Positions 5,606 to 43,346 of a stretch of 64,000 nt of DNA are shown one piece after another. The stretch's first letter is position 1, and the number at the start of each line of letters is the position of its first letter. The notes under the pieces are model-generated. The model was not told the origin of the DNA and ran no database searches. It worked only from the letters and a program-made list of their open reading frames with translations. A program made the translations under genes and the position numbers. The DNA lies in assembly GCA_963920705.1 (NCBI GenBank), contig OY987231.1, positions 16,531,024 to 16,595,023 of the forward strand, read 5' to 3'. This DNA is from Odiellus spinosus (lineage: Eukaryota > Arthropoda > Arachnida > Opiliones > Phalangiidae).

Positions 5606-6670
5606 TACCGACCATATATAGTAGCAATATGCTAACAGATATTTGTCCAAATTTTGTGTTAAAAATAACAGTATAAATTGGGGGATTGGTTCTCTATCAA
5701 ACCAAGGCCAATTAGAGTAGATATACACTCCGTTTTATTACTAACATAAATATGCCCTTTATAAAACCCCTAGGACCGAAACATCAAAACTATATATATC
5801 TAAATCCTAGACTCGTACCAAGAATAAAACGCTTGAAAATTGGCGAAAGAAAAGCTGGCTCGACATTCTAGAATCGACGCGTTATTGAGGCCTGGCTTAC
5901 AAGGTTCGAGCCCTCATCCCACTTTCTCTTTACCTCTAGGGGAAAAAAGGAATAAAAACGTGCTCTCCTTTCCAAAAAGGGTTTTTTGGTAAAAACTTGT
6001 CCAAATGTTGAATTATTGGGCGACAGTGTCGGTTTGCGGGGCAATACGTTTAAAGGTCTGATTTAGACGTTTATCTAGCCTCGCGTGCTCTTAAATCTAA
6101 AGACGAGGAGGATACGAAAATCCCACGATGTCTTGTATGGCGTATGAAGAAGCATTTTTTTTTTTTAGTTTTTCTCCTCCTACTCTCGATTATCACTCTG
6201 GTTCGTAGCTTCGCGGCCATAATCAGTTTGAAATTTCCGCACGTACAAAAGTAAGACGCTATTTAATTCCATTCTTTGATTTTAATAGATAAGAAGGATC
6301 CTAGCTTTGTACGTATAGAAATTTCCGATTGAACGAGTTATCACTCGGGGCTCTAAAAAAAGGGGACATCACTGATATAGATGACGGCCTAGCTTCGAAT
6401 ATACTGGAAACTCCGAATGAATCTTACCATAAGGGATAAAACGGGTATGGCAGAAATTGGATATGACAAGCCTTCTATTCCAAAATTGCCCCTATCCTGT
6501 TAACAAAGAGAAATCTAAACCGCTATTTAAAGTCTCTAGTTTCGCACCCCAAGCCTCAACGTCGATGGCCTACAAAAAACTCGTTGAAGGCAAAACGTTT
6601 TCTTAATTTTTTTTACGAATAAATATGATCCAAAACCATATAGGTCGCATCGATTCTAAATTTCCAGTTA
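5606..6670. other. Non-coding stretch before the satellite
   Basis: No gene seen. A GGTTCGAGCCC motif near 5913 resembles a tRNA B box, but no cloverleaf can be folded around it. The stretch ends where the first 158 bp satellite monomer starts. Confidence 0.45.
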
Positions 6671-8250
6671 CAAATCATCGTGATTAACTTAATATTAATA
6701 ATATTAATTTTAAATGGATCGAAAAGAACCAGGGTTGCCTCAGTTTTTTCAGATTCCAATTCCCTGATTTTTCAGGTTTTTGCCTGACCTTTTGCAACGA
6801 TTTTCCCTGACCGTTTCAGCTAATACTACAAATCATCGTGATTAACTTAATATTAATAATATTAATTTTAAATGGATCGAAAAGAATCAGGGTTGCCTCA
6901 GTTTTTTCAGATTCCAATTCCCTGATTTTTCAGGTTTTTGCCTGACCTTTTCCAACGATTTTCCCTGACCGTTTCAGCTAATACTACAAATCATCGTGAT
7001 TAACTTAATATTAATAATATTAATTTTAAATGGATCGAAAAGAACCAGGGTTGCCACAGTTTTTTCAGATTCCAATTCCCTGATTTTTCAGGTTTTTGCC
7101 TGACCTTTTCCAACGATTTTCCCTGACCGTTTCAGCTAATACTACAAATCATCGTGATTAACTTAATATTAATAATATTAATTTTAAATGGATCGAAAAG
7201 AACCAGGGTTGCCTCAGTTTTTTCAGATTCCAATTCCCTGATTTTTCAGGTTTTTGCCTGACCTTTTCCAACGATTTTCCCTGACCGTTTCAGCTAATAC
7301 TACAAATCATCGTGATTAACTTAATATTAATAATATTAATTTTAAATGGATCGAAAAGAACCAGGGTTGCCTCAGTTTTTTCAGATTCCAATTCCCTGAT
7401 TTTTCAGGTTTTTGCCTGACCTTTTGCAACGATTTTCCCTGACCGTTTCAGCTAATACTACAAATCATCGTGATTAACTTAATATTAATAATATTAATTT
7501 TAAATGGATCGAAAAGAACCAGGGTTGCCACAGTTTTTTCAGATTCCAATTCCCTGATTTTTCAGGTTTTTGCCTGACCTTTTCCAACGATTTTCCCTGA
7601 CCGTTTCAGCTAATACTACAAATCATCGTGATTAACTTAATATTAATAATATTAATTTTAAATGGATCGAAAAGAACCAGGGTTGCCTCAGTTTTTTCAG
7701 ATTCCAATTCCCTGATTTTTCAGGTTTTTCCCTGACCTTTTCCAACGATTTTCCCTGACCGTTTCAGCTAATACTACAAATCATCGTGATTAACTTAATA
7801 TTAATAATATTAATTTTAAATGGATCGAAAAGAACCAGGGTTGCCTCAGTTTTTTCAGATTCCAATTCCCTGATTTTTCAGGTTTTTGCCTGACCTTTTG
7901 CAACGATTTTCCCTGACCGTTTCAGCTAATACTACAAATCATCGTGATTAACTTAATATTAATAATATTAATTTTAAATGGATCGAAAAGAACCAGGGTT
8001 GCCTCAGTTTTTTCAGATTCCAATTCCCTGATTTTTCAGGTTTTTCCCTGACCTTTTCCAACGATTTTCCCTGACCGTTTCAGCTAATACTACAAATCAT
8101 CGTGATTAACTTAATATTAATAATATTAATTTTAAATGGATCGAAAAGAACCAGGGTTGCCACGGTTTTTTCAGATTCCAATTCCCTGATTTTCTAGGTT
8201 TTTGCCTGACCTTTTCCAACGATTTTTCCTGACCGTTTCAGCTAATACTA
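6671..8250 (+). repeat. 158 bp satellite, exactly ten tandem monomers
   Basis: Monomers start at 6671, 6829, 6987, 7145, 7303, 7461, 7619, 7777, 7935 and 8093, always 158 bp apart, with no indels. They are nearly identical; diagnostic variants are GCCTCAG/GCCACAG, GCCTGACC/CCCTGACC and TTGCAACG/TTCCAACG. TTGCAACG occurs in monomers 1, 5 and 8, and GCCAC in 3, 6 and 10, which suggests blocks of monomers were re-amplified. Monomer 10 is the most diverged. Each monomer is about 59 bp of AT-rich sequence followed by about 99 bp starting CAGGGTTGCC, the terminus of a transposon-like element whose other end lies at 8472-8481. Confidence 0.97.
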
Positions 8251-8481
8251 CCCAATTTTTAACCTTTTATTTTTAAATAATCTACACAACTGACAGTCAG
8301 CTTCAAGTTTTTTCTGCATATAATGATTGTAATTTCATGGCTTCTTGAAAGATCTTTAAATTCCCCGAAATTCCCTGACTTTTTTAAAATATCTTTAATT
8401 TCCCTGACTTTTTTTTAGTTCATTTTCAAATTCCCTAACTTTCACTGATTTCCCTGTTTTCTCTGACCTGTGGCAACCCTG
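8251..8481 (+). mobile_element. Right arm of a hAT-like element adjoining the satellite
   Basis: After the last monomer the sequence continues with CCCTGACTTTT-type blocks and ends CTGTGGCAACCCTG at 8468-8481. This is the inverse of CAGGGTTGCCACAG, found at the start of the element-like part of monomers 3 and 6; monomer 10 has CAGGGTTGCCACGG. The pair looks like the two termini of one non-autonomous element. No target duplication is found beside 8481 (ACTGAACT) and any monomer (AAAAGAAC), so the left flank may have been replaced or amplified. Assignment to hAT rests only on the CAGGG terminus. Confidence 0.6.
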
Positions 8482-9137
8482 ACTGAACTATGAAGTTCGA
8501 AATCTCCCCAAAAATGTAAATATAATAAGCTGTTTTTCTAAACTATGAAGTAGCAGTCTCGTTAATTAATTTAATTATTCAAATAATTTATTTATACGCA
8601 GTTATCATTTTCGAATTCGTGTTAGGTCCAAGCTGATTATTTTAGAGGTTAACACTATTAAAAAAAAAACTAAATTAAATTCATACTCAATAAGCCGAAC
8701 TAAGATTTAAAGAGCAATTTTCTCTCAGTCTTGATTAATTATTGTTAATTTTAATTCACTTTGAAGACAAATATGTCCAAGTACTGCGCGTTTTCTACCT
8801 AGTTTATCAAGTTAAATAGGATCTGAAAGTATATACCACGTTTGAAATCCGTTTCAATACGTTTATTAAAAGGAACAAGTATATGTTCGGAAGATCTCCT
8901 AAAACGTTTATTTAATAAACTGAAACGAGGCAGTAGCGATCTCATAAATTATTCTAATATTATTATAAGGAAATGACCGTTTCGAACAACTGTAGGTGGT
9001 CCCTATCAAAGGTAATATTGTAAAGAATTGAAAGAGTAAGGGGAATTTCAGTAATTTTAATTATGATTATGCCACATACCTAATTAATTTAAAAAGTCCT
9101 TCATTTATTATAATTTTTCAATCCCGTCATTGCTAAT
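8482..9137. other. Non-coding AT-rich stretch
   Basis: Nothing gene-like is seen. AT-rich sequence with an A-run near 8660 lies between the satellite block and the second family A MITE. Confidence 0.5.
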
Positions 9138-9144
9138 GTAATAT

Positions 9145-9461
9145 CAAGAATCCATTCAAGTTCCATAAGAATATGGGAGCATAGCTTTAGCCTCTGGTAT
9201 CATCCTCCCAAACTTTGTAACAAAAGTTCGTCTGCAATTTTCGCAACATTTGTACGCTTAGATCTTTTTTCGGTCGGCTCCATTTTTATAGCCCAAAATA
9301 TGAAGTCAAGGTCGTTAGTGGCGTGGGTTAATAATATAATGTCAGGAGCGATTTACTTGAAAAATCGATTCGAAGCGGACGAACTTTTGCTACAAAATTT
9401 GAGAGGATGGTTATTGAATCGCGGCCCTCCCATATTCTTTTGGAACCTGAATGGATTCTTG
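9145..9461 (+). mobile_element. Family A MITE, copy 2 (317 bp, perfect 7 bp TSD)
   Basis: Same terminal repeats and interior as the copy at 716, in the same orientation. It is flanked by an exact GTAATAT at 9138-9144 and 9462-9468. A few substitutions in each terminal repeat separate it from the other copies. It has no coding capacity. Confidence 0.92.
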
Positions 9462-9468
9462 GTAATAT

Positions 9469-10499
9469 AGATAGTAGCGAGACAAGTATATTTACCGTCT
9501 TATACCTCCTGCCTTTAACAATAGTTTATAATTATTTTTTATAAATTTTAATCAGCGTACTATGACTATTTTTTTATTAATTATAAGTTATATTATTATT
9601 TTTAAAACCAATCAACCTACAAATATATTTATGATTATGAATTATGGGAGGAACTGGAAAAAAACCGGAGATTTAATACTCAAAGGACATTTTCCAACGT
9701 TAGAATTTCGACTAACATCATACGAAAATATTTTCAGTCTTTTATCGTTTTAAAAATAGCAAAGTCATTTTTTTTTCTCCAAACCACGTCCGTTCTCTGG
9801 GAGAATAATCTCGACTGATTGCCTAACGTGAGTTGAATCGAAGAAAATAAAATAAAATATAAAAAAAAAACAGGGGTTATATAAAGCATTGGCCAAATAT
9901 AATTCCCATCAAAATACGAAACCGACAAAGAAAATATCCCATTTTAAAACCACTGACGGTATACCTTACAGGAGATTCGGGAGAAGAAAAAAAATGAGCT
10001 AATTAATGAAGAACTTTTAACGAGAAAGTAAAAAGAAAAAGATTATAAGAAGAAATTAATTTGTAGGCCAATTTAATTTCCTAAAAAGGATGTTTTTAAT
10101 TAGTAGCAAAACGAAGAGCGAAAGACGAGGGGAATTGGTAGGGGAATAGGAATTAAATCCGAAGAGACCGAGATGGAATGAGAATGGGAAACAAGATGTT
10201 AAGCCCAAATGGTTAGTTTCTCTTTCCAAAAATGTTACGTCCATCATGAACTAAGTTTAGAGTAAGGCTAAATCCTATTTTCTATCTAAATAACCAAATT
10301 GTTTCGTTTCAAAGTTATGATTTCAACAAACAATCATAACAAAAGATTTACAACCAACACATGCCCAGTACACGTGCGTACCCATAACGAATACTAGCAC
10401 GATGCAATGTCTGGTTAGTTTAAACTCAATTATGGGTGGGAGGCAGAGTCTGACCGTTGTCCTGTCTGAGCCACATGTACCTAAATCCCGTTATATTGT
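9469..10499. other. Non-coding stretch
   Basis: No gene seen. AT-rich with several A-runs (about 9860-9870). The short frames on both strands lack any recognisable motif. Confidence 0.45.
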
Positions 10500-14770: not shown

Positions 14771-15614
14771 CCGCTTTATTACCCGGTTATGATTTCCCCT
14801 AATCCAAATGACTTCAACTATTACTACTACCACATATTATAATCTAACCGAACCCACAGTTTCACCGCTTGCGAAGCTAAAAAGCTGTAAGAGGAGGGTG
14901 GTTATCCCTAAAAGACGAGCTGGTCCTAAGACAAATGGTTCGAAAAGGAAAATCATCCGAGGACGCGTAGGACTAGGAGAAGGTCTACTCGTACTTTCCG
15001 TTTCGTCTTTCCGCAGCGACTGCCTTCAGGGGTACTGGGGACGAGTCTAGAACCACCGCGTTTACCATCGTGGGGGTAAAAGATGAGAGCATCTGTTCCT
15101 TTTCTATCTTAAAAGAAAACAGCGAGGAAAAATGACGAGGGACGGAGGACCGAGTCTTTACGAATGATTGCCAAAGGCGAAGGTTAAAGAGTTAATTAGT
15201 GAATTGTACGAGATAAACTGTCAAACAATAATTGGCTTCATGTTTCCTGATCAGTTATAGGACATTTTCGTGATAACTCTTTATATTTCTGCTTTCTTCT
15301 AACACCTAACTATGGCAATTAGTGGGTCATGAATTTAACGAATCAATCTGTAATTTTTTGGACCACACATAAGCCACGATTACACTAGAAACTTAAGTTA
15401 GAACCACTCGAAGGTTTATCTTTGCACCCTTATTCGCTCTTTAAAAATTTAACTTTGAATGATTAGCAATTTAGTTTACTAATACTGCGTATTGCACATC
15501 TTATCCTCACCGAAATAAGCGTTAGAATATGGAGACAAAACTTAAACATAATAAGCAAGAAAGATACAAAATCAGGTACAATACAATCGTGTTATACGAT
15601 TATCATTATTCCCT
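14771..15614. other. Non-coding stretch between two MITEs
   Basis: No gene is supported. One 80-codon frame starts near 14808, but its translation (TSTITTTTYYNL) has no recognisable domain. Confidence 0.4.
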
Positions 15615-15621
15615 ATGGAAT

Positions 15622-15937
15622 CAAGAATCCATTCAGGTTCCATAAGAATATGGGAGCATAGCTTTAGCCTCTGGTACCATCCTCCCAAACTTTGTAACAA
15701 AAGTTCGTCTGCCATTTTCGCAACATTTGTACGCTTAGATCTTTTTTCTGTCGGCTCCATTTTTATTGCCCAAAATATTATGTCAAGGTCGTTAGTGGCG
15801 CGGGTTAATAATAGATGTCAGGAGCGATTTACTAGAAAAATCGATTCGAAGCAGACGAACTTTTGCTACAAAGTTTGGGAGGATGGATATTGAATCGCGG
15901 CCCTCCCATATTCTTATGGAACCTGAATGGATTCTTG
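15622..15937 (+). mobile_element. Family A MITE, copy 3 (316 bp, 7 bp TSD)
   Basis: Same structure and orientation as the copies at 716 and 9145. The flanks ATGGAAT (15615-15621) and GTGGAAT (15938-15944) are a 7 bp duplication with one transition. Open frames crossing it on both strands are produced by the near-palindromic structure and are not genes. Confidence 0.9.
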
Positions 15938-31972: not shown

Positions 31973-33376
31973 TCACGAACACTTGTCCCAGAACTCGTCG
32001 TGCGACGACCTCTTGGGGTGTTGAAGGGTGTGAGCGTGCGCCCCGTAGTGAGGAACGTGACAAGGACACGCGGAATGCCAGGAATTGGAAGGCCCCGTAG
32101 AGGTACCGGCCACGGGCGCTTCGGTGTCGCTACCGTTGGCTGCGTCTTCTTGAGCTTTCATCTGGCCAGCGTAGTATTCCCACATGCGACCCAGGATCAG
32201 GGCGGCGATGTTGCTGCCGTGATTGTGCTCGATCAGGCGCAAAACGAACGCCCCGTCCCATCCCAGATAGGTTAGGGAGATTTTTCGAGACACGCGGGGA
32301 AGTTCGCCGGAGGAGACCAGCTTGGTTCGCCAGAGAGTCAGCCGGACGAAGGCTAAGCGATTCCAAGGGAAGCTGCGCCAAGCCCAAGCAGCCATGCTGA
32401 AAGCGTTGAGAGGCAACATGACGGCCAGGTAGAACCAAACGGCGGAGAAGACCTTTTCGTTGAAGACGTTGATGGGTAAGACGCAGCGGCAGATATTAGT
32501 TCGCAAGCCACCCTGATTGGCCGCCCTTACTTTGCACAGAGTCTGCAAAGGGAAACGGGGCGAGTTCCACCATTCACCCTCGGTAGCCAATCGGCGCAAC
32601 AACTCGAACCCGTGCCTGATGAAACCTCTTCCCATGAACATGGTCAGCATCAGGAATTGGATGCCGACGTTCAAGACGTACAAGCCTTTAACGACTAAGT
32701 AAAGAATGCATAGATAACGACTGGGACCGGGGGCGCAGCGGCACATTAAGGGAATGCGGCAGGAAGGGTCGTCGCAACAACCGGCGGTATTTCCCGACAC
32801 CAACGAATGGAATTGGTCGACGAACTCGCTTAAGAGAGCTTCTCTCTGCTGACAACCGGGAGGTAACGCCGCGATATCCGAGGCCCGTTTTAACAGTTTT
32901 CGGAGCTTGACGCCGGCATTGTGGGCGCAGGCTCCCCACAGCACGAACGGGAGATGGAAGCAAAATCCCTGAACTAACAGAATCAGGGGAGCCCACTGGT
33001 AATACCCGACCGTAATTCGACGAATCCGATTAGGTCCGATGGCCGCCACCACTAAGCCACCGTAGTCCAAATCATCGGCCATGATCGGGTTCTGCAAATT
33101 GTCCAGCTCGTCTTCGGCGTCTCCTTCTTCGGATACAATGTAGTAAGTGGAGGACGTCCAACAGAAACTGTTGACGTAACGCGCTTGAGCCTCGGTAAAG
33201 TACGTCGGCGTAAAACACTCGATCGGTTCTCCGATATACTGCTTGGTGAATATAGGTAGGGCTAAAAAGAGGAAGACTATCATGGTATACTTGCGATTCA
33301 GTTTGTCGATGCCGTCGTCGATTGGCACGTGGATCCCGCCGATAAGATCGTGGAATCGGAAGAGAAACGAGGACAT
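31973..33376 (-). CDS. Innexin (gap-junction channel protein), paralogue 1
   Basis: A 467 aa protein predicted to form plasma-membrane gap-junction channels or hemichannels. Layout from the sequence: cytoplasmic N-terminus (DDGIDKLNRKYT, about 20-31), TM1 about 29-45, first extracellular loop with Cys54 and Cys72, YYQW at 125-128, TM2 about 129-149, cytoplasmic loop with a Cys cluster (C200, C201, C206, C212, C214), TM3 about 223-246, second extracellular loop with Cys281 and Cys298 (extra Cys296), CVLPINVFNEK at 298-308, TM4 about 311-331, then a long tail with LGWDGAFVLRLIEHNHG (371-387) and WHSACPCHVPHYG. The ATG at 33376 is the first in frame; the frame remains open upstream to a stop at 33491-33493 without an ATG. 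The coding region is uninterrupted, slightly longer than typical innexins. The GC content is much higher than the flanks. Family call is very sure; orthology is not. Confidence 0.97.
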   Translation of the reverse strand: MSSFLFRFHDLIGGIHVPIDDGIDKLNRKYTMIVFLFLALPIFTKQYIGEPIECFTPTYFTEAQARYVNSFCWTSSTYYIVSEEGDAEDELDNLQNPIMADDLDYGGLVVAAIGPNRIRRITVGYYQWAPLILLVQGFCFHLPFVLWGACAHNAGVKLRKLLKRASDIAALPPGCQQREALLSEFVDQFHSLVSGNTAGCCDDPSCRIPLMCRCAPGPSRYLCILYLVVKGLYVLNVGIQFLMLTMFMGRGFIRHGFELLRRLATEGEWWNSPRFPLQTLCKVRAANQGGLRTNICRCVLPINVFNEKVFSAVWFYLAVMLPLNAFSMAAWAWRSFPWNRLAFVRLTLWRTKLVSSGELPRVSRKISLTYLGWDGAFVLRLIEHNHGSNIAALILGRMWEYYAGQMKAQEDAANGSDTEAPVAGTSTGPSNSWHSACPCHVPHYGAHAHTLQHPKRSSHDEFWDKCS

Positions 33377-33645
33377 GTCTTTGCTTTTTCCCTGGCGAGA
33401 CTTCGCCACGGACTTGACGCAAGTTGAGCGAGACACGGTGTCGGCTGGACGAAACGAAAGAGTGACGGAATCAACCGGAAAGGCGCGGCGTCAAACAGGC
33501 TGATAGTAGTACCAGCCCGAAGACGATCGTCAAAGCTCACCCCAAAGAACCCACGCGGACGAAAGTTAAAAACTTGTTCGTAGCTCGCCGATTGGATCTC
33601 GTTATCTAGATGACTCGCTGCGTTCAGTACGTTTTCCACGACCAT
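33298..33645 (-). other. Upstream ORF overlapping the innexin 1 start
   Basis: An ATG in strong context (AGCGATGG) starts a 115-codon frame (MVVENVLNAAS..) that ends 79 nt inside the innexin CDS, in another frame. The distance from this ATG to the innexin ATG is 269 nt (2 modulo 3). The other two innexins have an equivalent ATG at the same phase. The peptide has no recognisable domain. It is more likely a translational control element than a protein gene, but an unseen intron could change this. Confidence 0.55.
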
Positions 33646-33664
33646 CGCTGGGATGGACCACACA

Positions 33665-33667
33665 CCT
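33665..33667 (-). promoter_or_regulatory. Predicted 3' splice site, innexin 1 5' UTR
   Basis: On the minus strand CGTTTTGCAG is followed by GTGTGTGGTCCATCCCAGCG and then the upstream ATG, exactly 20 nt from the splice junction. The same arrangement occurs before the other two innexins. It is either a cis-intron acceptor or a spliced-leader addition site; the partner exon is not identified. Confidence 0.65.
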
Positions 33668-36600
33668 GCAAAACGGAAACGAGAATGTTACAAATATCGC
33701 TAGCGCAAATCCAAATGAGAGATTTACTTAATAGATGCCCGCCCTTTCGCTTAGTAAAACTGCCTCAGTTCTAAGTAGTAAATTAAGTTGGACTGGTTAC
33801 CTTTGCAACTAAATCAATATTACAATATAGCCTCCTTTAATATAAACAAGGTTTATTACCGAAGAAAGGAGGTTATTCAATATTTAGCATATAGCGTTTG
33901 ACGACTTCTAAAGTGTCCATCTATAGTATCATTCGTTCATGGTACCACTGAGACAATTTTAAAGGCCAAAAGGACGTATTACATCGGTATAGGTAAATCT
34001 TTCGAAGCGATACCTACAACCATGTCCTCCGCGAGAAACCTAGTTCTTACCAACAACTCTTCTCTCTCCCAACAAGAAAAAAGATAAAAACTAACGGGAC
34101 AAAAAAAAAAGGGCCAAAAAAAGAGATGTTGGAAACTTCCATTTTATCCCCAAGTAGGTCATGGAAGAATATTTTACGTCCCTCGATCCCTAGGGAGGGT
34201 GCGAAAGAATTCGACCCCTCCCTCGAGAGGCGACCGGAGAGGGAAGCTATTGGATAAGGAAGGGGAAGAGGGTTATTCCCGCAAAGTGGACGTTCGTTCA
34301 GTTAACCCAAAAAATTCGAGAAACATTCTTCCTTTTTTTCAGGATCTCAACGTCAAAACCCCTTCAAGACTCACAAAGGGCTAGTTGCGTAATTTTAAGG
34401 TCGTAAATACAAGATAATTAATATTTATTATAGTAAAAAATTCCAAGAATCCTAAACGCAAACCACTTTTAAAGTAAATCTAAAGCAGTACCGGTATACC
34501 GTTTGGAAGTTGACTATTCTTAAAAAAATTTAAAGATCTAGATTTCTTAAAATTTCATTAGTTCCACCCAGAATTGGATGTTTTACATTTTTAGCATTGG
34601 TATTTGATTACGAATACATACTTTAAACCTGTTTTAAAATAATTATTTTTGACTGATCGGAAAACATTGTGCAACTCTAATTCTTTAACCCATTCCTGGC
34701 GGGGACAGCGAATTCGAACCAAATAGAACCCAAGCCAACGGCACGATTTTGACAAGAAACCGTCCTATCCTCGAAAGTGGGTCAATTCCCAAACGCGCGA
34801 CACCTCAAATATTAATTACGCCCCGTTTAAGCTCGCTCGTAAACCAATTAAGGGATATTTCCCCTTTACAAAACGCGAATGAAAGAGGTAATCGGGTATT
34901 ACAATCGTCTCACCTATATATTACGGAGTATCCTTCGCGCTTATACGAATGGAACCTGAAACGGAAGTGTTCTTTTAAGTTCGATCGCGCGTGAATAAGG
35001 AGATTGCGGTTATTTCGAGGGTAGCGAAGCTAAACGGATTAGCCTTCTCGCGCTTATTTCCGCGGTTAGATTAGGTTAGAGTTTAGCGACCGACGCCTCG
35101 TGTCGAAAAGAAAGGCGAAGAAACTTTTGTAAGAAACCATAGTTTGCGGTCTACCACGATGCTTTTAAAATCTCTAGTCGGGTTTCCTTTCGGCAGAGGC
35201 GTTGCAACCCAGTAACCTTTTGACTGAAGCCAAAAGAAACATTTCCTTACACCGACGATTTAAAAATGGAAAGTAATCTTCATTTTTGAGGTCAATCAGA
35301 CGCGTTCTCTGATAACCGTCATAAATATGGTTTAACTTAATATCTAACCTATATATGAAGTAAGTTTAAAATCAAAACCAAAATGACGTTCTAATTTAAC
35401 GGACTCGATGTTAAAAGAGTACTTGAAGTAATTACTAAAACGCGTTTTATGTTTATATCTACGACTACGTTTATGACATCATCATATCACTTTAATCTTT
35501 CTAAAATCCTAGATTTCCTTTAGAGATTCGTTAAAAAGATACGAAGTTATGCGGGGAAGTATATAGGGAGTAAATCCGTGCCTAATGTTCGTTACGATAA
35601 GGGAAACGGGTGGTCAAACACCGCGTTATTTTTTTTTAAAAGACCAGTTAGGCGAATTTATGGTTATCGAATTTACGATTAATGATCGAGGCGTAAAAAC
35701 AATTATTGAAATGTCCACGGAAATTTATGTAGGATCCCCGTAGAAAAACGAGAAGAAAATGGTAGGGATGGTTGGCCAGCGCATTGGCGCCAACTCCGAA
35801 ATGGGTTGGAGCGAGGCAAAAGAAGGGGGGAGTCTGTATTCTCGGCCTTCTTTTGGCAGTTACGCGTGCCCGAAAACTTCTTTCCGTTCTCTTTGGACCC
35901 CCTTCCTCCTTACTCCTCCATCGCCGCATTTGCTCTTCCGGAACAAGAGTTCCACCGAGAAATGCCATTGACTACAGCGCTAGCGGAGATGGCAGAAGCG
36001 TAGAAGAAGCGTCTAAAGCTATAGCTTCACATTTCCTTTCCCTGTTTTTGCGTTTTTAAAAGCGTTCCTCTCGCCTTATCCCTTTCTCACTCTCTCTCTT
36101 CCCTTCTTTGCCTAGTTTCATTTCTCTCCTCTCTCTTTCTCCGTTAGGCCTAACATAGCAATCCCTAGAGAAATACTATGGGAGTATTGGGAGCGGGCAT
36201 GGAAGGGTGCGGGTCTTTTTTTTCCCCGCGAAATGGAGAATAAGTCGGAGAAGGATAGGGAAGAGGTTACGAACGATCCGGGGGTACATCTTCGTATTCG
36301 CCTAGCTCCTTTATCCATCAATGTTGAGGAAGTATTCTATATTGTTTTTCAACCTATTACTTCTTCAATAGTTTCGGAGGTGTATGATCAAGAAGGATTT
36401 TATTTTCGGGAGATGCAGTAAGATCCGGTTTTCGTACCTTAAAATGGAACAACCTTTCCTCTACAGCCACGCCATGGTATAAACTACCATACTTAAGTCT
36501 CGGTCACAAAAATTGACAGAAATAGAAAATATTTTATCAAACTCATGCAATACCTTTCACTGCAAAAAAAAAAAAAAAAAACTCGCGGGCCACAGGTTTG

Positions 36601-37016
36601 AAATGTCCCTCTGTGGCGAGTGAAATTTTTACAGTAGAAGGCAGGGATACAATCAACTATCATTCAAGTAGATAATCAGATTAGATTCAGGGGAAGCCTA
36701 TTGTGATTTTTAAAGCACGTATTATTTAGAAATATTATCAAGAAAAATGTAAGGACAAAGACAAAACGGATCTCGCAACATTCCCGACTATAAATCGATC
36801 TCGCGGAGTTGAATTTTGTTCATAATTGCGTATTTATGTTTTAAGAATTCTGGTTTATTGTTACTGATAATACAAAATAAAATAGGCTTATTTTGTTTTA
36901 TTTCCCCCTTGTAATAATTAAATTTGGTCACCCAGTTTAAGAAAATCGGTAAAATAACTTGGTAATTTGTTTTAACCAAAGGTGCGTCCCTAAATACGTC
37001 CTTTTTAATATGAGTT

Positions 37017-37029
<13 letters not shown>
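33668..37029. other. Intergenic region between innexins 1 and 2
   Basis: No gene seen. Upstream exons and the promoter of innexin 1 should lie here but cannot be pinned down. It has GC-richer patches (34740-35130 and 35760-36000) with overlapping chance frames on both strands, and a short hairpin at about 36583-36621 (ACTCG..CCACAG against CTGTGGCGAGT). Confidence 0.4.

Positions 37030-37060
<31 letters not shown>
37030..37060. repeat. Poly-T tract (31 T)
   Basis: The longest homopolymer in the window, read as poly-A on the strand of the innexins. It lies about 1.3 kb beyond the innexin 2 stop codon. No polyadenylation signal lies directly before it on the minus strand, so it is probably a simple repeat and not a retroposed tail. 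Confidence 0.85.
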
Positions 37061-37064
<4 letters not shown>

Positions 37065-38280
37065 AGCCATTCGCGTTAGTTATTGTTTTTTGTATATTTT
37101 CAGTTAATCGAAAAATTAATTTCCGAAAACGGGGCTGGTGTACTTTTAAAGTATCACTTTGTTTAGATTTATTTTTTAAATTGTTTTACTAAGATTGGCA
37201 GTATCGTTTAGTCGTACACACAGCCTGAAAACCAAAAAGCTCGAGTTTAATATTGGTCCTTGTATTTATTTAATTTATTTTTTCCTCGATATTGGCAGTA
37301 AACCATGCACACTTGACAATTTTAAACCCTATCATATCAACCAAATATATGGTTAATTCATGATATGCGGTCTGTTTATCGTTCTTCTATATTTATTTTA
37401 TCTTTAAGTAATAAAAACCTTTTTTCATAGTTATAGAGTTTTTTTTTTTTTAGTTAAATCCGAATATTTACAATTTTTACTTCCTTTCGATTGATAAGCC
37501 TAATTTCGATTAACCAAATTAACTTTAACACGATTAAGGATTTAATCCGGATTATAATCAACAGTTAACTTTTTCAAATAGGGTTTATGGGAGTAATAAT
37601 TCAACCTACGAGCCCTTTAGGTTGAATATTTTGAATTATTTTAATTAATTTTATCGTTTATTTAATTATACTAACTTTATAATTTTTTAACAAATTTAGG
37701 GGTATTTTTTTGTCATTTAACCGTTTAATACCGGAATAAAAAATTATTTCGCGGTATTTTTGTATTTTCTTTTGTATTTGAATAATTTTTAAATTCTATA
37801 ATTATTTCAATTTTTAACTTTTCTGACGATTATTAAATAGTTTTCAAGACACCTGATTGAAATTGATCAATCTTTAACTTTTATACTTCGCGTATTTTCG
37901 TCTCAAACGTCAACTACATTTTTCAAAAATTTCAAACATGATTTTCTTTTTTCCTTATAATAAAAAGGGCAGAATAAATGAGAAATCGCGCTTTTATAAA
38001 ACTTTTCCCTTATTTATTTTTTAATTAGTTTATTTTTCTCTAAACTCGTAAGAAGACTAACAAAGAGAGAGGCACTGTTATCAAGCCTAACTTTCTCCGA
38101 ATATATTTTTATTATATATTTTCGAAATATTTTTGGTTGAACGCGTTCCCTCGACTAATCCTTCTCGACTAGGTATAATTAGAAGAAAAATAGTGATACC
38201 GCGCGACTATTCTAAAGGGCTCTCGTATCGCTTTATATTATTTATTTGTTATTTTTTTTATTTTTTTTTTAAGAATTCGA
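37061..38280. other. AT-rich region 3' of innexin 2
   Basis: Very AT-rich, with repeated TTTATT and TAATT words and no gene. The 3' UTR of innexin 2 probably ends within or at the right edge of this stretch. Confidence 0.45.
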
Positions 38281-38286
38281 TTTATT
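38281..38286 (-). promoter_or_regulatory. Candidate polyadenylation signal, innexin 2
   Basis: AATAAA on the minus strand about 85 nt beyond the innexin 2 stop codon. A second AATAAA lies about 40 nt further on (near 38241). The region is AT-rich, so chance occurrence is possible. Confidence 0.35.
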
Positions 38287-38368
38287 TCGTTTAAATTTTT
38301 GTTAGTGAAATAGACGATTCCCGAAATTGGCAATACGAATGCATAGGTATTAATTACACGATCAGCGA

Positions 38369-39802
38369 TCATAAGCAGTTTTCCCAAACGCCCGGGTGCG
38401 ACCTTCTTTTGGTATGGGGTAGGGAGTGGTGCGAGTGGTGGTGTGGGGTCCCGAAGTGGGGTACGTGGCAAGCGCAGGTGGAGTGCCAGGAGGTGGAGGG
38501 GCCCGCGACGGAAGTGCCCGCAACTGGTTCGACCAGTTCGTTCGCGCCGCCGGAAGTGGCGTCTTCCTGGGCTTTCATTTCGGCCACGTAAAACTCCCAT
38601 ATTTTGCCCAGGATGAGGGTGGTCATGCTACTGCCGTGATTGTGCTCGATCATGCGAAGGATAAACACTCCGTCCCAGCCAAGGTGGCTGAAGGAGATTT
38701 TGCGCGCGACGCGAGACAATTCGCTCATGCCGAACATTTTTGTGCGCCACAAAATAAGTTTGACGAAGGCTAATCGGTTCCAAGGGAAGCAGCGCCAGAT
38801 CCAAATGGCGAGGCTGAAGGCGTTTAGCGGTAAGAGGAAGGCCAGGTAGAACCACACGGTCGAGTAGATCTTCTCGTTGAAGACGTTGATGGGCAAAACG
38901 CAACGGAAAATGAAAGTGCGCAGCGTCAGTTCATCCTCGACCCTGACTCGACACAGGGTTTGTAAGGGGAAACGCGGCGAGTTCCACCACTCGCCGTCCG
39001 TGGCCAGTCGGTGCAATACTTCGAAGCCGTGCCTCAAGAAGCCCTTGCCCATGAACATGGTCAAGAGCAAAAATTGGAGGCCGACGTTCACGACATAGAG
39101 AGCTTTCACCACCAAATACAAGACGCATAAATAGCGGCTAGGGCCGTTCGCCCACCGACAGAGCAAGGGGAAACGACACGTGGGATCTTCGCAGCAGCCA
39201 CCCGTGTCCTTGCCCGTCACCAGGACGCTAAACTGGTCGACGAATTCTACCAAGAGCGCTTCGCGTTGCTGGCAGCCCGGGGGTAGGGCGGCGATGTCCG
39301 AAGCCCGTTTTAAGAGGCGTCGAAGTTTGACGCCGGCGTTGTTCGCGAACGAGCCCCAAATTATAAAGGGCAAATGAAAACAAAAGCCTTGCACTAAGAG
39401 GAATAGAGCCGTCCATTGGTAATACCCGACCCGCACTCTGCGGAGTCGGTCGGGACCGAGAGAGGCCGCGTCCAAACCTTCGTAATAGAACTCTTCCATC
39501 ATGACCGGTTGTTGCGGTTTGGATAGTACTTCTCCGGCGGCGTCGCCGGATTCGTCAGCGACGATGTAATAGGTGGACGAGGTCCAGCAGTGACTGTTCA
39601 TGTAGCGCGATTGGGCTTCGGTGAAGTATGTCGGAGTGAAACACTCGATGGGTTCGCCCATATACTGCTTGGTGAAGATGGGCAGCGCCAGAAAGAGGAA
39701 GATCAGGAGGGTGTACTTACGGTTAAGTTTGTCGATGCCGTCGTCGATGGGCACGTGGACGCCACCGATCAGGTCGTGGAAACGGAATAACAAGGAGGAC
39801 AT
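38369..39802 (-). CDS. Innexin (gap-junction channel protein), paralogue 2
   Basis: A 477 aa four-TM channel protein of the innexin family, clearly paralogous to its neighbours. Key points: DDGIDKLNRKYT at 20-31, TM1 about 29-45, Cys54 and Cys72 in the first extracellular loop, YYQW at 127-130, TM2 about 131-151, cytoplasmic loop with C203, C204, C209 and C215, TM3 about 226-249, Cys284 and Cys301 in the second extracellular loop, CVLPINVFNEK at 301-311, TM4 about 314-334, LGWDGVFILRMIEHNHG at 374-390. The tail has WHSTCACHVPHFG followed by a His-rich HHHSHHS stretch. The start chosen is the ATG at 39802: the conserved MSSLLFRFHD begins there, the next in-frame stop upstream is at 39902-39904 and no other ATG intervenes. 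The first loop carries an insertion relative to paralogue 1. Single uninterrupted coding block. Confidence 0.97.
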   Translation of the reverse strand: MSSLLFRFHDLIGGVHVPIDDGIDKLNRKYTLLIFLFLALPIFTKQYMGEPIECFTPTYFTEAQSRYMNSHCWTSSTYYIVADESGDAAGEVLSKPQQPVMMEEFYYEGLDAASLGPDRLRRVRVGYYQWTALFLLVQGFCFHLPFIIWGSFANNAGVKLRRLLKRASDIAALPPGCQQREALLVEFVDQFSVLVTGKDTGGCCEDPTCRFPLLCRWANGPSRYLCVLYLVVKALYVVNVGLQFLLLTMFMGKGFLRHGFEVLHRLATDGEWWNSPRFPLQTLCRVRVEDELTLRTFIFRCVLPINVFNEKIYSTVWFYLAFLLPLNAFSLAIWIWRCFPWNRLAFVKLILWRTKMFGMSELSRVARKISFSHLGWDGVFILRMIEHNHGSSMTTLILGKIWEFYVAEMKAQEDATSGGANELVEPVAGTSVAGPSTSWHSTCACHVPHFGTPHHHSHHSLPHTKRRSHPGVWENCL

Positions 39803-40134
39803 GCTAGCGTTTTTGCCCCGGCGAGATTGCGCCACGGTCGTCTTGCAGGTCGTCGTACGAGACAGGGCGGCGGACGGGTGCCGCTGCTTGTACGGCGGCC
39901 GCTACGTGCGTTCGACGAAAAAAAGAAAGCGGGGCGAACGTAACCAAGCGGGAAGGGAGCGGACGCGTCCGAGAAGATCGCGGAAGCCGAACGACGACCA
40001 CCGCCGATATCCGTTGCCTGCGAGCGCTTTCGATCCAAGTAGGGCGAGCTTCTTCCTTTCTCTCGTCTGAAATAGATACTTCCGGCTTTCCGTCCTGGTC
40101 CGCTTCTAGATCCGGCGTCAGTTTTGTCGACCAT
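39769..40134 (-). other. Upstream ORF overlapping the innexin 2 start
   Basis: GCCATGG, a near-ideal initiation context, opens a 121-codon frame (MVDKTDAGS..) that ends 34 nt inside the innexin CDS. The distance to the innexin ATG is 332 nt, the same phase (2 modulo 3) as in the other two genes. Its last residues (CYSVSTT) match those of the innexin 3 upstream frame, but this overlap is constrained by the innexin coding sequence. Confidence 0.55.
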
Positions 40135-40153
40135 GGCTCGGATGAGGCGCAAA

Positions 40154-40156
40154 CCT
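40154..40156 (-). promoter_or_regulatory. Predicted 3' splice site, innexin 2 5' UTR
   Basis: On the minus strand CATTTCCGCAG is followed by GTTTGCGCCTCATCCGAGCC and the upstream ATG, 20 nt from the junction. It is closely similar to the innexin 3 site (GTGTGCGTCTCAACCGCGCC). Confidence 0.7.
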
Positions 40157-41558
40157 GCGGAAATGGGAGAGTCCCACTCAGTCTTTGTATGGCGCTCTCT
40201 TCGGGCGGGGCACCCGCACCTACGATATAACTCCATCCCCGGTCAACGCGTCCTGCTCCGAGATCGAGGTCATCTACTGGATAGCGTTTCGCGGAAATAA
40301 ATAACGGGGGGACGCGCGCGGGGCAACGCCGAAGCCTGTCTGACCGATTACTCGGTATCCAGCCCCTTTCTAACTATAAACCGAGGCGACGTCTGGGAAA
40401 CGCGACTCTATTTCGGTACTCGCCCGACTTTTATTTGGAAGTTGATTCATCGACTGCTCTCTGCCCCTTAACGCCTCGACAATTATAAAACAAAACCTCT
40501 CTCTCTTTCTCTCTCTTTCTTTGTCTCTCTCTGTTTCTCTCCGTTTCTTAACTGCATAGGGGTGTCCTCGAAAGTGACTATTTAGCGATTATTAAATTAC
40601 GTCCTCTTAATATTTTCTAAGTTAAGATCACAAAATTCCCGTTCATTTATTGTCAATTGAAAAATATGGCTGGGTCGGTCGATTAAGGTTTTTATTAAAA
40701 AATCTTACTCGAACGAAACCAAAATGCCAATTCTTAAATATTTACACTTTCCTCACCGTTAAATTAATTTTGATTTATATCCCAATTTCTTTAGAAACTA
40801 TAAGCCGCTTATCGTAGCCATTAACAGGGTACTTTTGAAATATGGTAAATTTCTTTTTCTGAGAAAATCTTTACTATTTTCGCAGTTTTATTATTTTTTT
40901 AATTATTTAGGAGTTTTAATGATATGGTTTTGTTAATGAAGTTCATCGAGGCTTTTAATTTTTATTAAATGACCGCCGCATCTAGTCTTTCTAACGACGT
41001 TGGACTATAGTTAATAACGCTAATTTTTGGTTTTCCCAAACTTTTAAAATTTTTTGGAAAGAAGGGCTCGCTTTTAGGAGGGCCGAATGATACAAAATTC
41101 TTGTTCGAAGACGACTTTTTAAAGAACTTTTTTTTCGTTTTGTTTTAAAATACTGTTTGGCTTAACGCGACGTACTGACCGATTTAATTCTACGATTTTA
41201 ATTTTATTTTTACACTCTTATTCTCTTCTTTTCTCCCGTTCAAGACGAATATAATACTTAATAATACAATATAAGGCCGAAAGCACCTTCGTTAATTCCG
41301 TTCAACACCGCACTTGGAAATATTTACAAAAAATTTTATTTCAGTTTTTTTGTTTTTTGTTTTGTTTTCTTGTATAGATATTTTCTTGGGCTAATCGTAT
41401 TAAAAATTAAAGCTTATTTGTTTTCATATTAATATTCTCGTTCATTTGTCACGTATTATTTAAAAAGACGGAAATTTATTCTCGAGTTAGTACGTCGTAA
41501 TAAAATTAAAAGAGTAATATTTTATCATGGATTAGGTTAAGTTGTTTCGTTTTGTTAA
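40157..41558. other. Intergenic region between innexins 2 and 3
   Basis: About 1.4 kb without a gene. The right part is AT-rich and likely contains the innexin 3 3' UTR; the left part, with a (CT)n tract at about 40497-40545, may contain the intron or promoter of innexin 2. Confidence 0.45.
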
Positions 41559-41564
41559 TTTATT
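41559..41564 (-). promoter_or_regulatory. Candidate polyadenylation signal, innexin 3
   Basis: AATAAA on the minus strand about 45 nt beyond the innexin 3 stop codon, in AT-rich sequence. Position is plausible but unproven. Confidence 0.4.
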
Positions 41565-41609
41565 TGTTAATTAGTTATTTATAAAAAAGCGGGTTTATAG
41601 ACTAATCTA

Positions 41610-43040
41610 TCAGGAGCATTTCTCCCAGAAGACGTCGTGCGGGCTACGTTTGGTATGCTGCGTGGTGTGATGATGGTGGGGAGGGGGAGGAGGCGGAGCT
41701 TGGGCTCCGAAATGGGGCAAATGGCAGGCGCACGCTGAATGCCAGGACGAAGAGGACGGTCCCGTAGAAGTCCCGGGGACCGGATCCAGTTCGCTGGTCG
41801 TGGCCTCCTCTTGGGCCTTCAATTGCTTGGCGTAATTCTCCCAAACCTTGCCCAGAATGAGCGTGGCCATGTTGCTACCGTGGTTGTGTTCGATCAGGCG
41901 TAGGACGAAGACGCCGTCCCAGCCGAGATGGTGGAAGGAAATTTTACGCGAAGCCCGGGTCAATTCGGTCATGTTGAACATCTTGGTCCTCCAGAGCGTC
42001 AAACGCACGAAGGCCAATCGGTTCCAAGGGACGCTCCGCCAAATCCAGATAAAAAGACTGGCCACGTTTATGGGCAAGAGAAACGTCAATAAAAACAAGA
42101 CGGCCGCGAATATTTTCTCGTTGAAAACGTTGATGGGCAAGACGCATCGGAAGATGTACGTTTGGAGAGAGAGCTGGTTTTCCGCGCGCATGCGGCACAG
42201 CGTCAAGAGGGGGAAGCGGGGCGAGTTCCACCACTCGCCCTCTACGAAAAGCCGCCGAAGCATCTCGTAGCCGTTCCGCAAAAACCCGCGACCCATAAAC
42301 ATGGTCAGGAACACGAATTGCAAACAGACATTGACCACGTAAAGGCCCTTGACGAACAAGTACAGGACGCACAAATAGCGACTAGGTCCGCCGACACATC
42401 GGCAAAATATAGGGATGCGACACGAGGGATCTTCGCAACAGCCCGTGGCCGTTCCGGCGATTAGCGTGTTAAACTGATCGACAAACTCCGCCAGGAGAGC
42501 CTCGCGCTGTTGGCAACCGGGGGGCAAAGCGGCGATGTCCGAAGCCCGTTTGAGCAGACGCCGCAATTTGATACCGGCGTTATGAGCCCAGGCGCCCCAG
42601 ACGACGAACGGCAAGTGGAAGCAAAAGCCTTGAAGCAAGAGGAAAAGGGCCGTCCATTGGTAATAGCCGACCCGAACTCTGCGAAGTCGGTCGGGGCCGA
42701 TGGCCGCCACTTGCAAGCCGCCGTAATTAAATTCTTCGGGCATGAGCGGCTTCTGCACGGTATCGAGAACGCCTTTGACCGCGTCGTCGTTTTCCGTGAC
42801 GATGTAATACGTGGACGAAGTCCAGCAGTAGCTGTTGACGTAGCGCGCCTGGGCGGTAGTGAAGTAATGCGGAGGGAAGCACTCGATGGGTTCGCCGATG
42901 TACTGCTTGGTGAAGATTGGCAGTGCCAAGAAGAGGAAGATGATAAGAGTGTACTTACGATTCAGTTTGTCAACAACATCGTCGATAGGCACGTGGATGC
43001 CGCCGATCAAGTCGTGGAAACGGAAGAGTAACGAGGACAT
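41610..43040 (-). CDS. Innexin (gap-junction channel protein), paralogue 3
   Basis: A 476 aa innexin, closest in arrangement to its neighbours. It has DDVVDKLNRKYT at 20-31, TM1 about 29-45, Cys54 and Cys72 in the first extracellular loop, YYQW at 126-129, TM2 about 130-150, a cytoplasmic loop with C201, C202, C207, C213 and C215, TM3 about 225-248, Cys282 and Cys299 in the second extracellular loop, CVLPINVFNEK at 299-309, TM4 about 312-332 and LGWDGVFVLRLIEHNHG at 372-388. The tail ends with WHSACACHLPHFG, a proline run, HHHH and a final KCS. The ATG at 43040 is the first in frame after the stop at 43116-43118. The coding block is uninterrupted and GC-rich. It is the most upstream gene of the cluster in transcription direction. 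Confidence 0.97.
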   Translation of the reverse strand: MSSLLFRFHDLIGGIHVPIDDVVDKLNRKYTLIIFLFLALPIFTKQYIGEPIECFPPHYFTTAQARYVNSYCWTSSTYYIVTENDDAVKGVLDTVQKPLMPEEFNYGGLQVAAIGPDRLRRVRVGYYQWTALFLLLQGFCFHLPFVVWGAWAHNAGIKLRRLLKRASDIAALPPGCQQREALLAEFVDQFNTLIAGTATGCCEDPSCRIPIFCRCVGGPSRYLCVLYLFVKGLYVVNVCLQFVFLTMFMGRGFLRNGYEMLRRLFVEGEWWNSPRFPLLTLCRMRAENQLSLQTYIFRCVLPINVFNEKIFAAVLFLLTFLLPINVASLFIWIWRSVPWNRLAFVRLTLWRTKMFNMTELTRASRKISFHHLGWDGVFVLRLIEHNHGSNMATLILGKVWENYAKQLKAQEEATTSELDPVPGTSTGPSSSSWHSACACHLPHFGAQAPPPPPPHHHHTTQHTKRSPHDVFWEKCS

Positions 43041-43324
43041 ACTGTGGTCGCCGCTCGGCCGGGATTTCGCCACGGTGGTGGGGCCGTGTGAGCGAGACAG
43101 GGCGACGGTCGGCGGCTACGACTCGCGACGGGAGGAACGGCGCGAGAGACCGTTCCGAAGGACACTTGGATCGAGCCGAAGACGAGCGGCTCGTCGACGA
43201 CGGCGACGACAGCGACTTCTTTCCCGTTTCCCTCTGGGCGTCCTGCGGCTGCGGCTACGGCGGCGACAGCGGCCGTCCTTCTCAGTCTGCGTCCGGCACT
43301 GGCTCCGGCAATTTTGACGACCAT
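43007..43324 (-). other. Upstream ORF overlapping the innexin 3 start
   Basis: GCCATGG opens a 105-codon frame (MVVKIAGAS..) ending 34 nt inside the innexin CDS. The distance to the innexin ATG is 284 nt, phase 2 modulo 3 as in the other genes. The interior is Ala/Arg-rich, reflecting CGG/GCC-rich leader DNA. A regulatory upstream ORF is more plausible than a functional protein. Confidence 0.55.
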
Positions 43325-43343
43325 GGCGCGGTTGAGACGCACA

Positions 43344-43346
43344 CCT
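43344..43346 (-). promoter_or_regulatory. Predicted 3' splice site, innexin 3 5' UTR
   Basis: On the minus strand CGTTTCCCAAATAG is followed by GTGTGCGTCTCAACCGCGCC and the upstream ATG at 20 nt. Conservation of the spacing and the exon sequence with the other two genes supports real use as an acceptor or trans-splice site. Confidence 0.65.

Follow-up and report, generated by a model that had tools for sequence, protein, structure and literature searches.

Three innexin genes lie in tandem on the minus strand of a 64,000-nucleotide stretch of Odiellus spinosus DNA (C7:16531024-16595023, from a genome of 443 Mb in 286 contigs), hereafter the window. Each is preceded by a possible splice acceptor AG, exactly 20 nucleotides (nt) and an upstream ATG, within a sharply bounded conserved island. 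Selection on this island, ATG included, is a simpler reading than selection on the open reading frame (ORF) that begins there. The explanation we prefer, and to which we give an even chance, is that each leader is an exon of the 5' untranslated region (5' UTR), with a repressive upstream AUG in its conserved first part, and that neither the peptide nor the exact frame has been kept.

The genes, which we name g1, g2 and g3, and their overlapping upstream frames are as follows.

31973..33376, minus strand: innexin g1, 467 aa, single open frame, Pfam PF00876 E 3.7e-79
38369..39802, minus strand: innexin g2, 477 aa, single open frame, Pfam PF00876 E 3e-78
41610..43040, minus strand: innexin g3, 476 aa, single open frame, Pfam PF00876 E 6.1e-77
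33298..33645, minus strand: overlapping upstream ORF of g1, 115 aa
39769..40134, minus strand: overlapping upstream ORF of g2, 121 aa
43007..43324, minus strand: overlapping upstream ORF of g3, 105 aa

The AG, 20-nt spacer and ATGG described in the initial annotation of this DNA are exact in all three genes: the AG lies at 33667-33666 (g1), 40156-40155 (g2) and 43346-43345 (g3), the ATGG starts at 33645, 40134 and 43324, and the innexin ATGs are at 33376, 39802 and 43040. The distances it gave between upstream and innexin ATG (269, 332 and 284 nt, each 2 modulo 3) are right, as are the upstream frames of 115, 121 and 105 codons that overlap the innexin start in every case. These frames differ from the main one, pass its start in 3/3 genes and end inside the innexin at +76, +31 and +31, respectively; the ORF list begins that of g2 at an earlier in-frame ATG, 40236, which is upstream of the AG.

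An ungapped three-gene comparison around the upstream ATG revealed the island, which comprises the 36 positions after the AG (the 20-nt spacer, the ATG and 13 nt).

33630..33667, minus strand: g1 acceptor-like AG and island, 22/36 positions invariant, acceptor score 13.8
40119..40156, minus strand: g2 acceptor-like AG and island, 22/36 invariant, acceptor score 8.8
43309..43346, minus strand: g3 acceptor-like AG and island, 22/36 invariant, acceptor score 7.2

Invariant positions number 11/20 in the spacer and 11/16 from the ATG onwards, compared with 4/40 just upstream (two of them the AG itself) and 2/44 just downstream. The left edge of the island coincides with the AG, the right edge falls about 13 nt after the ATG, and the longest invariant run is ATGGTCG. 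Pairwise identity within the island is 67%, 67% and 83%, versus 70-72% in the coding sequences (CDSs). With up to three mismatches allowed, the pattern of invariant bases matched the window three times, at the g1-g3 islands, and 100 shuffles gave no match. A search of the same genome for a second copy of the g3 island matched only itself, in a search insensitive enough to miss the g1 and g2 islands too.

Splice sites and start contexts were scored with approximate matrices that had not been trained on this species. In all three genes, no acceptor-like site in the 600 nt before the innexin ATG scores higher than the AG (13.8, 8.8 and 7.2), which for g1, g2 and g3 ranks among the highest 0.06%, 1.8% and 4.2% of the window's 6,955 AGs; elsewhere in this genome, two coding acceptors inferred in innexins from the limits of their open frames scored 6.8 and 11.9. 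Because the AG is the best local acceptor-like site and the island begins there, it is plausible that each leader is a 5' UTR exon in which the upstream AUG has been kept. The acceptor that had been proposed at the AG stands as a putative one, a match in sequence.

Such an exon would start directly after the AG, 289, 352 and 304 nt before the innexin ATG of g1, g2 and g3, and the first AUG met in it by a scanning ribosome would be the upstream one, 20 nt in. As initiation there would pass the innexin start out of frame, innexin production would depend on ribosomes that bypass the upstream AUG, or on transcripts without it. The upstream AUG and its neighbourhood would then have been kept as a cis-acting brake, and the peptide and exact frame would not. 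Splicing at the AG, inclusion of the leader in mRNA, the transcript starts, translation and repression are all predictions of this reading. The main ATG of each gene presumably keeps the usual innexin N-terminal register, which we count in its favour.

The strong context that had been ascribed to the upstream ATGs depends on the rule applied. All carry G at -3 and +4, and are strong by the vertebrate rule; by a Drosophila-like matrix covering -4 to -1 their scores are -0.57, 0.56 and 0.56, versus 1.44, -0.20 and -0.38 for the main ATGs, so that the upstream ATG has the higher score in g2 and g3, and the main ATG in g1.

The initial annotation had also suggested selection on the overlapping frame itself, and here periodicity, codon use, peptide likeness and gap lengths were largely negative. 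Across the three paralogues, we found no codon-level conservation of the upstream frame. Changes in the island at upstream-frame codon positions 1, 2 and 3 are 4, 4, 4 (g1-g2), 3, 4, 5 (g1-g3) and 1, 3, 2 (g2-g3), with none of the periodicity seen in the innexin CDSs, a test with little power because it covers only 36 nt. Codon-use scores of the upstream frames (-0.219, -0.252 and 0.009) compare with 0.447-0.534 for the CDSs, on which the score had also been trained, and are not coding-like; against open shuffles they correspond to z of 0.05, -0.30 and 1.57 for g1, g2 and g3, and another frame beats the upstream frame in g1 and g2. By a different coding score, on which stop codons in the other frames weigh, the upstream frame ranks above the other two in the initial part of each leader, at values below those of the CDSs.

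Peptide similarity in the upstream, +1 and +2 frames was 22, 18 and 30 for g1-g2, 47, 9 and 24 for g1-g3, and 42, 43.5 and 41 for g2-g3. The upstream-frame values are higher than those of residue-shuffled peptides (means -17.7, -16.6 and -5.0; s.d. 9.5, 9.2 and 10.4), and the other frames also exceed the shuffled peptides, as homologous DNA would give; the upstream frame is the most alike of the three in g1-g3 only. Gaps in the leader alignments are not multiples of three in 4/6, 5/6 and 2/5 cases per pair (11/17, the chance level), and 69%, 46% and 49% of aligned columns keep phase, figures that are rough, given how poorly the middle of the leader aligns. The small upstream peptide does not look conserved and its frame gives no clear coding signal; neither the overlap nor the phase requires the frame to be under selection. 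The common 2 modulo 3 phase is best read as mostly inheritance from the paralogues' ancestor, together with chance. Of the shared translational switch that had been proposed, the 5' UTR exon that keeps an upstream AUG is supported as plausible; selection on the overlapping frame is not supported.

Several observations weigh against the reading of a retained upstream AUG. The acceptor scores of g2 and g3 alone are not decisive, because AGs within coding exons reach 8.2. An insensitive blastn comparison (E up to 0.05) of the 4.7, 1.5 and 5 kb that precede g1, g2 and g3 gave no match at all and detected no conserved first exon. In one pair, g1-g3, the peptides are more alike in the upstream frame than in the other two. 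None of the three leaders has a further ATG between the upstream one and the main one, where base composition alone would predict 3.9, 3.8 and 2.4, and this absence is weak evidence: a first-order Markov simulation gives chances of 0.27, 0.41 and 0.55 of no ATG, and the control triplet CAT is almost as rare (1 versus 0 in 879 letters). The upstream frame stays open in 5.9%, 6.2% and 32.6% of dinucleotide-preserving shuffles for g1, g2 and g3 (7.2%, 8.0% and 33.7% of first-order Markov simulations). Three open overlapping frames remain somewhat unlikely by chance, the product of the shuffle values being 0.0012 if they are independent. With equal phase (x 1/9) this becomes 0.00013, which overstates the surprise and is no test of selection, because the leaders are homologous, so that independence fails, and the feature was chosen after the fact.

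The best local alignments within 1,000 nt upstream of the three genes scored 15, 14 and 18 with no shuffled control, and only that between g2 and g3 lies at the leader. Candidate donors scored 9.0, 8.5 and 8.1, versus 12.1 and 7.3 for two inferred real donors, and prove nothing, because scores of at least 8 occur at 0.5% of all GTs in the window. No RNA structure was detected in the leaders (z of -1.02, 2.07 and -0.29), nor any known RNA family in the window at gathering scores.

The leaders also resemble each other at their other end: the middle is barely alignable among the trio, and the last 57-60 nt are similar again, with one 3-nt length difference and no clear codon periodicity in the innexin frame.

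33377..33433, minus strand: 3' part of the g1 leader, 57 nt, similar to its g2 and g3 counterparts
39803-39862, minus strand: 3' part of the g2 leader, 60 nt, similar to its g1 and g3 counterparts
43041-43097, minus strand: 3' part of the g3 leader, 57 nt, similar to its g1 and g2 counterparts

This similarity, with its single 3-nt length difference, could reflect a functional mRNA that has no upstream ATG, either because transcripts start inside the leader or because they are spliced at a second acceptor 68, 99 and 75 nt before the innexin ATG. The product would be a short, AUG-free leader, and alternative acceptors could toggle the brake; we regard this as a tangible, if clearly lesser, possibility. 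Acceptor-like sites do exist at -68 (9.7, in the top 1.1% of AGs), -99 (3.0) and -75 (3.5), but only the g1 site is good. Those of g2 and g3 are weak (their scores are reached by 18% and 15% of all AGs) and occupy different alignment columns, and this alternative leaves the conserved island around the upstream ATG unexplained. The same 57-60 nt could instead belong to an N-terminally extended innexin, if an intron in the leader put the upstream ATG in frame, as the initial annotation had offered. An innexin frame that stays open as far upstream as -114, -99 and -75 and a length difference of only 3 would both suit such an extension. Yet there is no good donor-acceptor pair common to the three genes: the best in-frame pairs (introns of at least 40 nt) score 12.3, 1.7 and 4.3, at different sites, and changes in the extension at codon positions 1, 2 and 3 (24, 18 and 25, summed over the three pairs) have no clear periodicity, making this hardly probable. 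The conserved-looking VAKSR stretch in frame upstream of the innexin ATG was rejected as an in-frame extension, for want of clear codon periodicity.

Other alternatives concern the island itself. It might be a promoter or another DNA or RNA element, such as a splicing enhancer or an initiator (in that variant, around the CA at exon positions 11-12), with the ATG in it incidental. Its sharp edges, its conservation without codon periodicity and the failure of our insensitive comparison to find a conserved exon 1 would all agree with this, but pyrimidine-rich stretches precede the AG in all three genes, as fits an acceptor, and the longest invariant run is the one that contains the ATG; we consider it unlikely. 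That duplicated leaders are simply still alike, with no selection at all, would be natural for tandem paralogues, but the decay of neighbouring positions to 4/40 and 2/44 invariant, beside 22/36 in the island, makes pure inheritance highly improbable. We also think it very unlikely that g1-g3 are alternative last exons of one transcription unit, a distant promoter and first exon being spliced to any of the three islands. The similar acceptor islands, the common orientation and the lack of separate conserved first exons (in a limited search) are compatible with such an arrangement, in which the same upstream AUG would be met each time, splicing picking the channel type and scanning its amount.

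All three proteins belong to PF00876 (259.5-266.8 bits, cut-off 25), matching positions 1-332 or 1-333 of the 333 in the profile, and g3 matches Innexin-6 (PDB 5h1q) with an E of 6.2e-23 (phmmer). Pairwise identity among g1, g2 and g3 is 72-74% for protein and 70-72% for CDS DNA, and the changes in each pair number 103-114 at the first, 48-60 at the second and 229-259 at the third codon position. By these figures they are paralogues, duplicates under strong protein constraint, and because of this the three upstream ORFs are not independent cases. A Pfam scan of ten queries gave three innexins and seven without a family; a second, of seven, gave two innexins, one query with two sub-cut-off matches and four without any. 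No relatives were found in viral contigs (query g3) or prokaryote contigs (query g2).

Genome-wide, the innexin profile has 25 matches: 17 on contig C2, 3 on C7 (those of the window), 3 on C11 and 2 on C1. Several on C2 are partial, as split genes would give. The C2 proteins examined resemble insect innexins. By phmmer (E up to 0.01), g3 matched Innexin-6 at 84.7 bits and pannexins at 18.8-33.9 bits; two C2 proteins, L003 and L001 (the latter one exon, 308 aa), matched Innexin-6 at 57.9 and 77.2 bits and no pannexin. From such comparisons, the C7 trio differs from the C2 innexins, being divergent relative to them.

The C-terminal tails of the trio share WHSxCxCHxPHxG, then a His-containing stretch, and end in W[DE][KN]C[SL] (about 31973-32080, 38369-38490 and 41610-41740, minus strand); this Cys/His cluster could bind metal. 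Between the genes lie a CT-rich simple repeat (40497-40541, plus strand, between g3 and g2) and a run of 31 T (37030-37060, plus strand, between g2 and g1). Elsewhere in the window are a tandem array of ten copies of a 158-bp unit (6669-8251; 98% matches) and two plus-strand open frames (9114-9470 and 15555-15893) that share a near-identical peptide some 60 residues long and probably belong to a dispersed repeat.

Should the mRNA include the leader, one inherited translational brake would be common to a whole cluster of gap-junction genes, which would offer a compact test case for why an upstream AUG stays while its peptide and frame drift. If it is not, the trio would be a caution that paralogous leaders can imitate repeated selection.

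The other innexins of this genome, mostly on C2 (17/25 matches), are PF00876 proteins like the trio, but no island was seen by eye in the 150 nt before the three C2 start codons inspected. In the literature searches made, the papers listed for innexins together with upstream ORFs were by title about connexins, and no match listed for the other topics dealt with innexin leaders. Control by upstream AUGs is a known kind of regulation. The closest known case is that of insect 5' UTRs with conserved upstream AUGs and overlapping upstream ORFs: in Drosophila, upstream AUGs show greater conservation than the triplets beside them, and the main CDS is repressed by upstream ORFs (PMC6070289). That study used ribosome profiling and cross-species alignments; the present comparison covers the DNA of three paralogues. 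In work on vertebrate connexin43 (PMC8869330), 5' UTR features and leaky scanning enter the discussion of which start codon is used. That case differs in that it concerns downstream AUGs of the CDS, in connexins that have no sequence similarity to innexins, but it resembles the trio in being a gap-junction mRNA.

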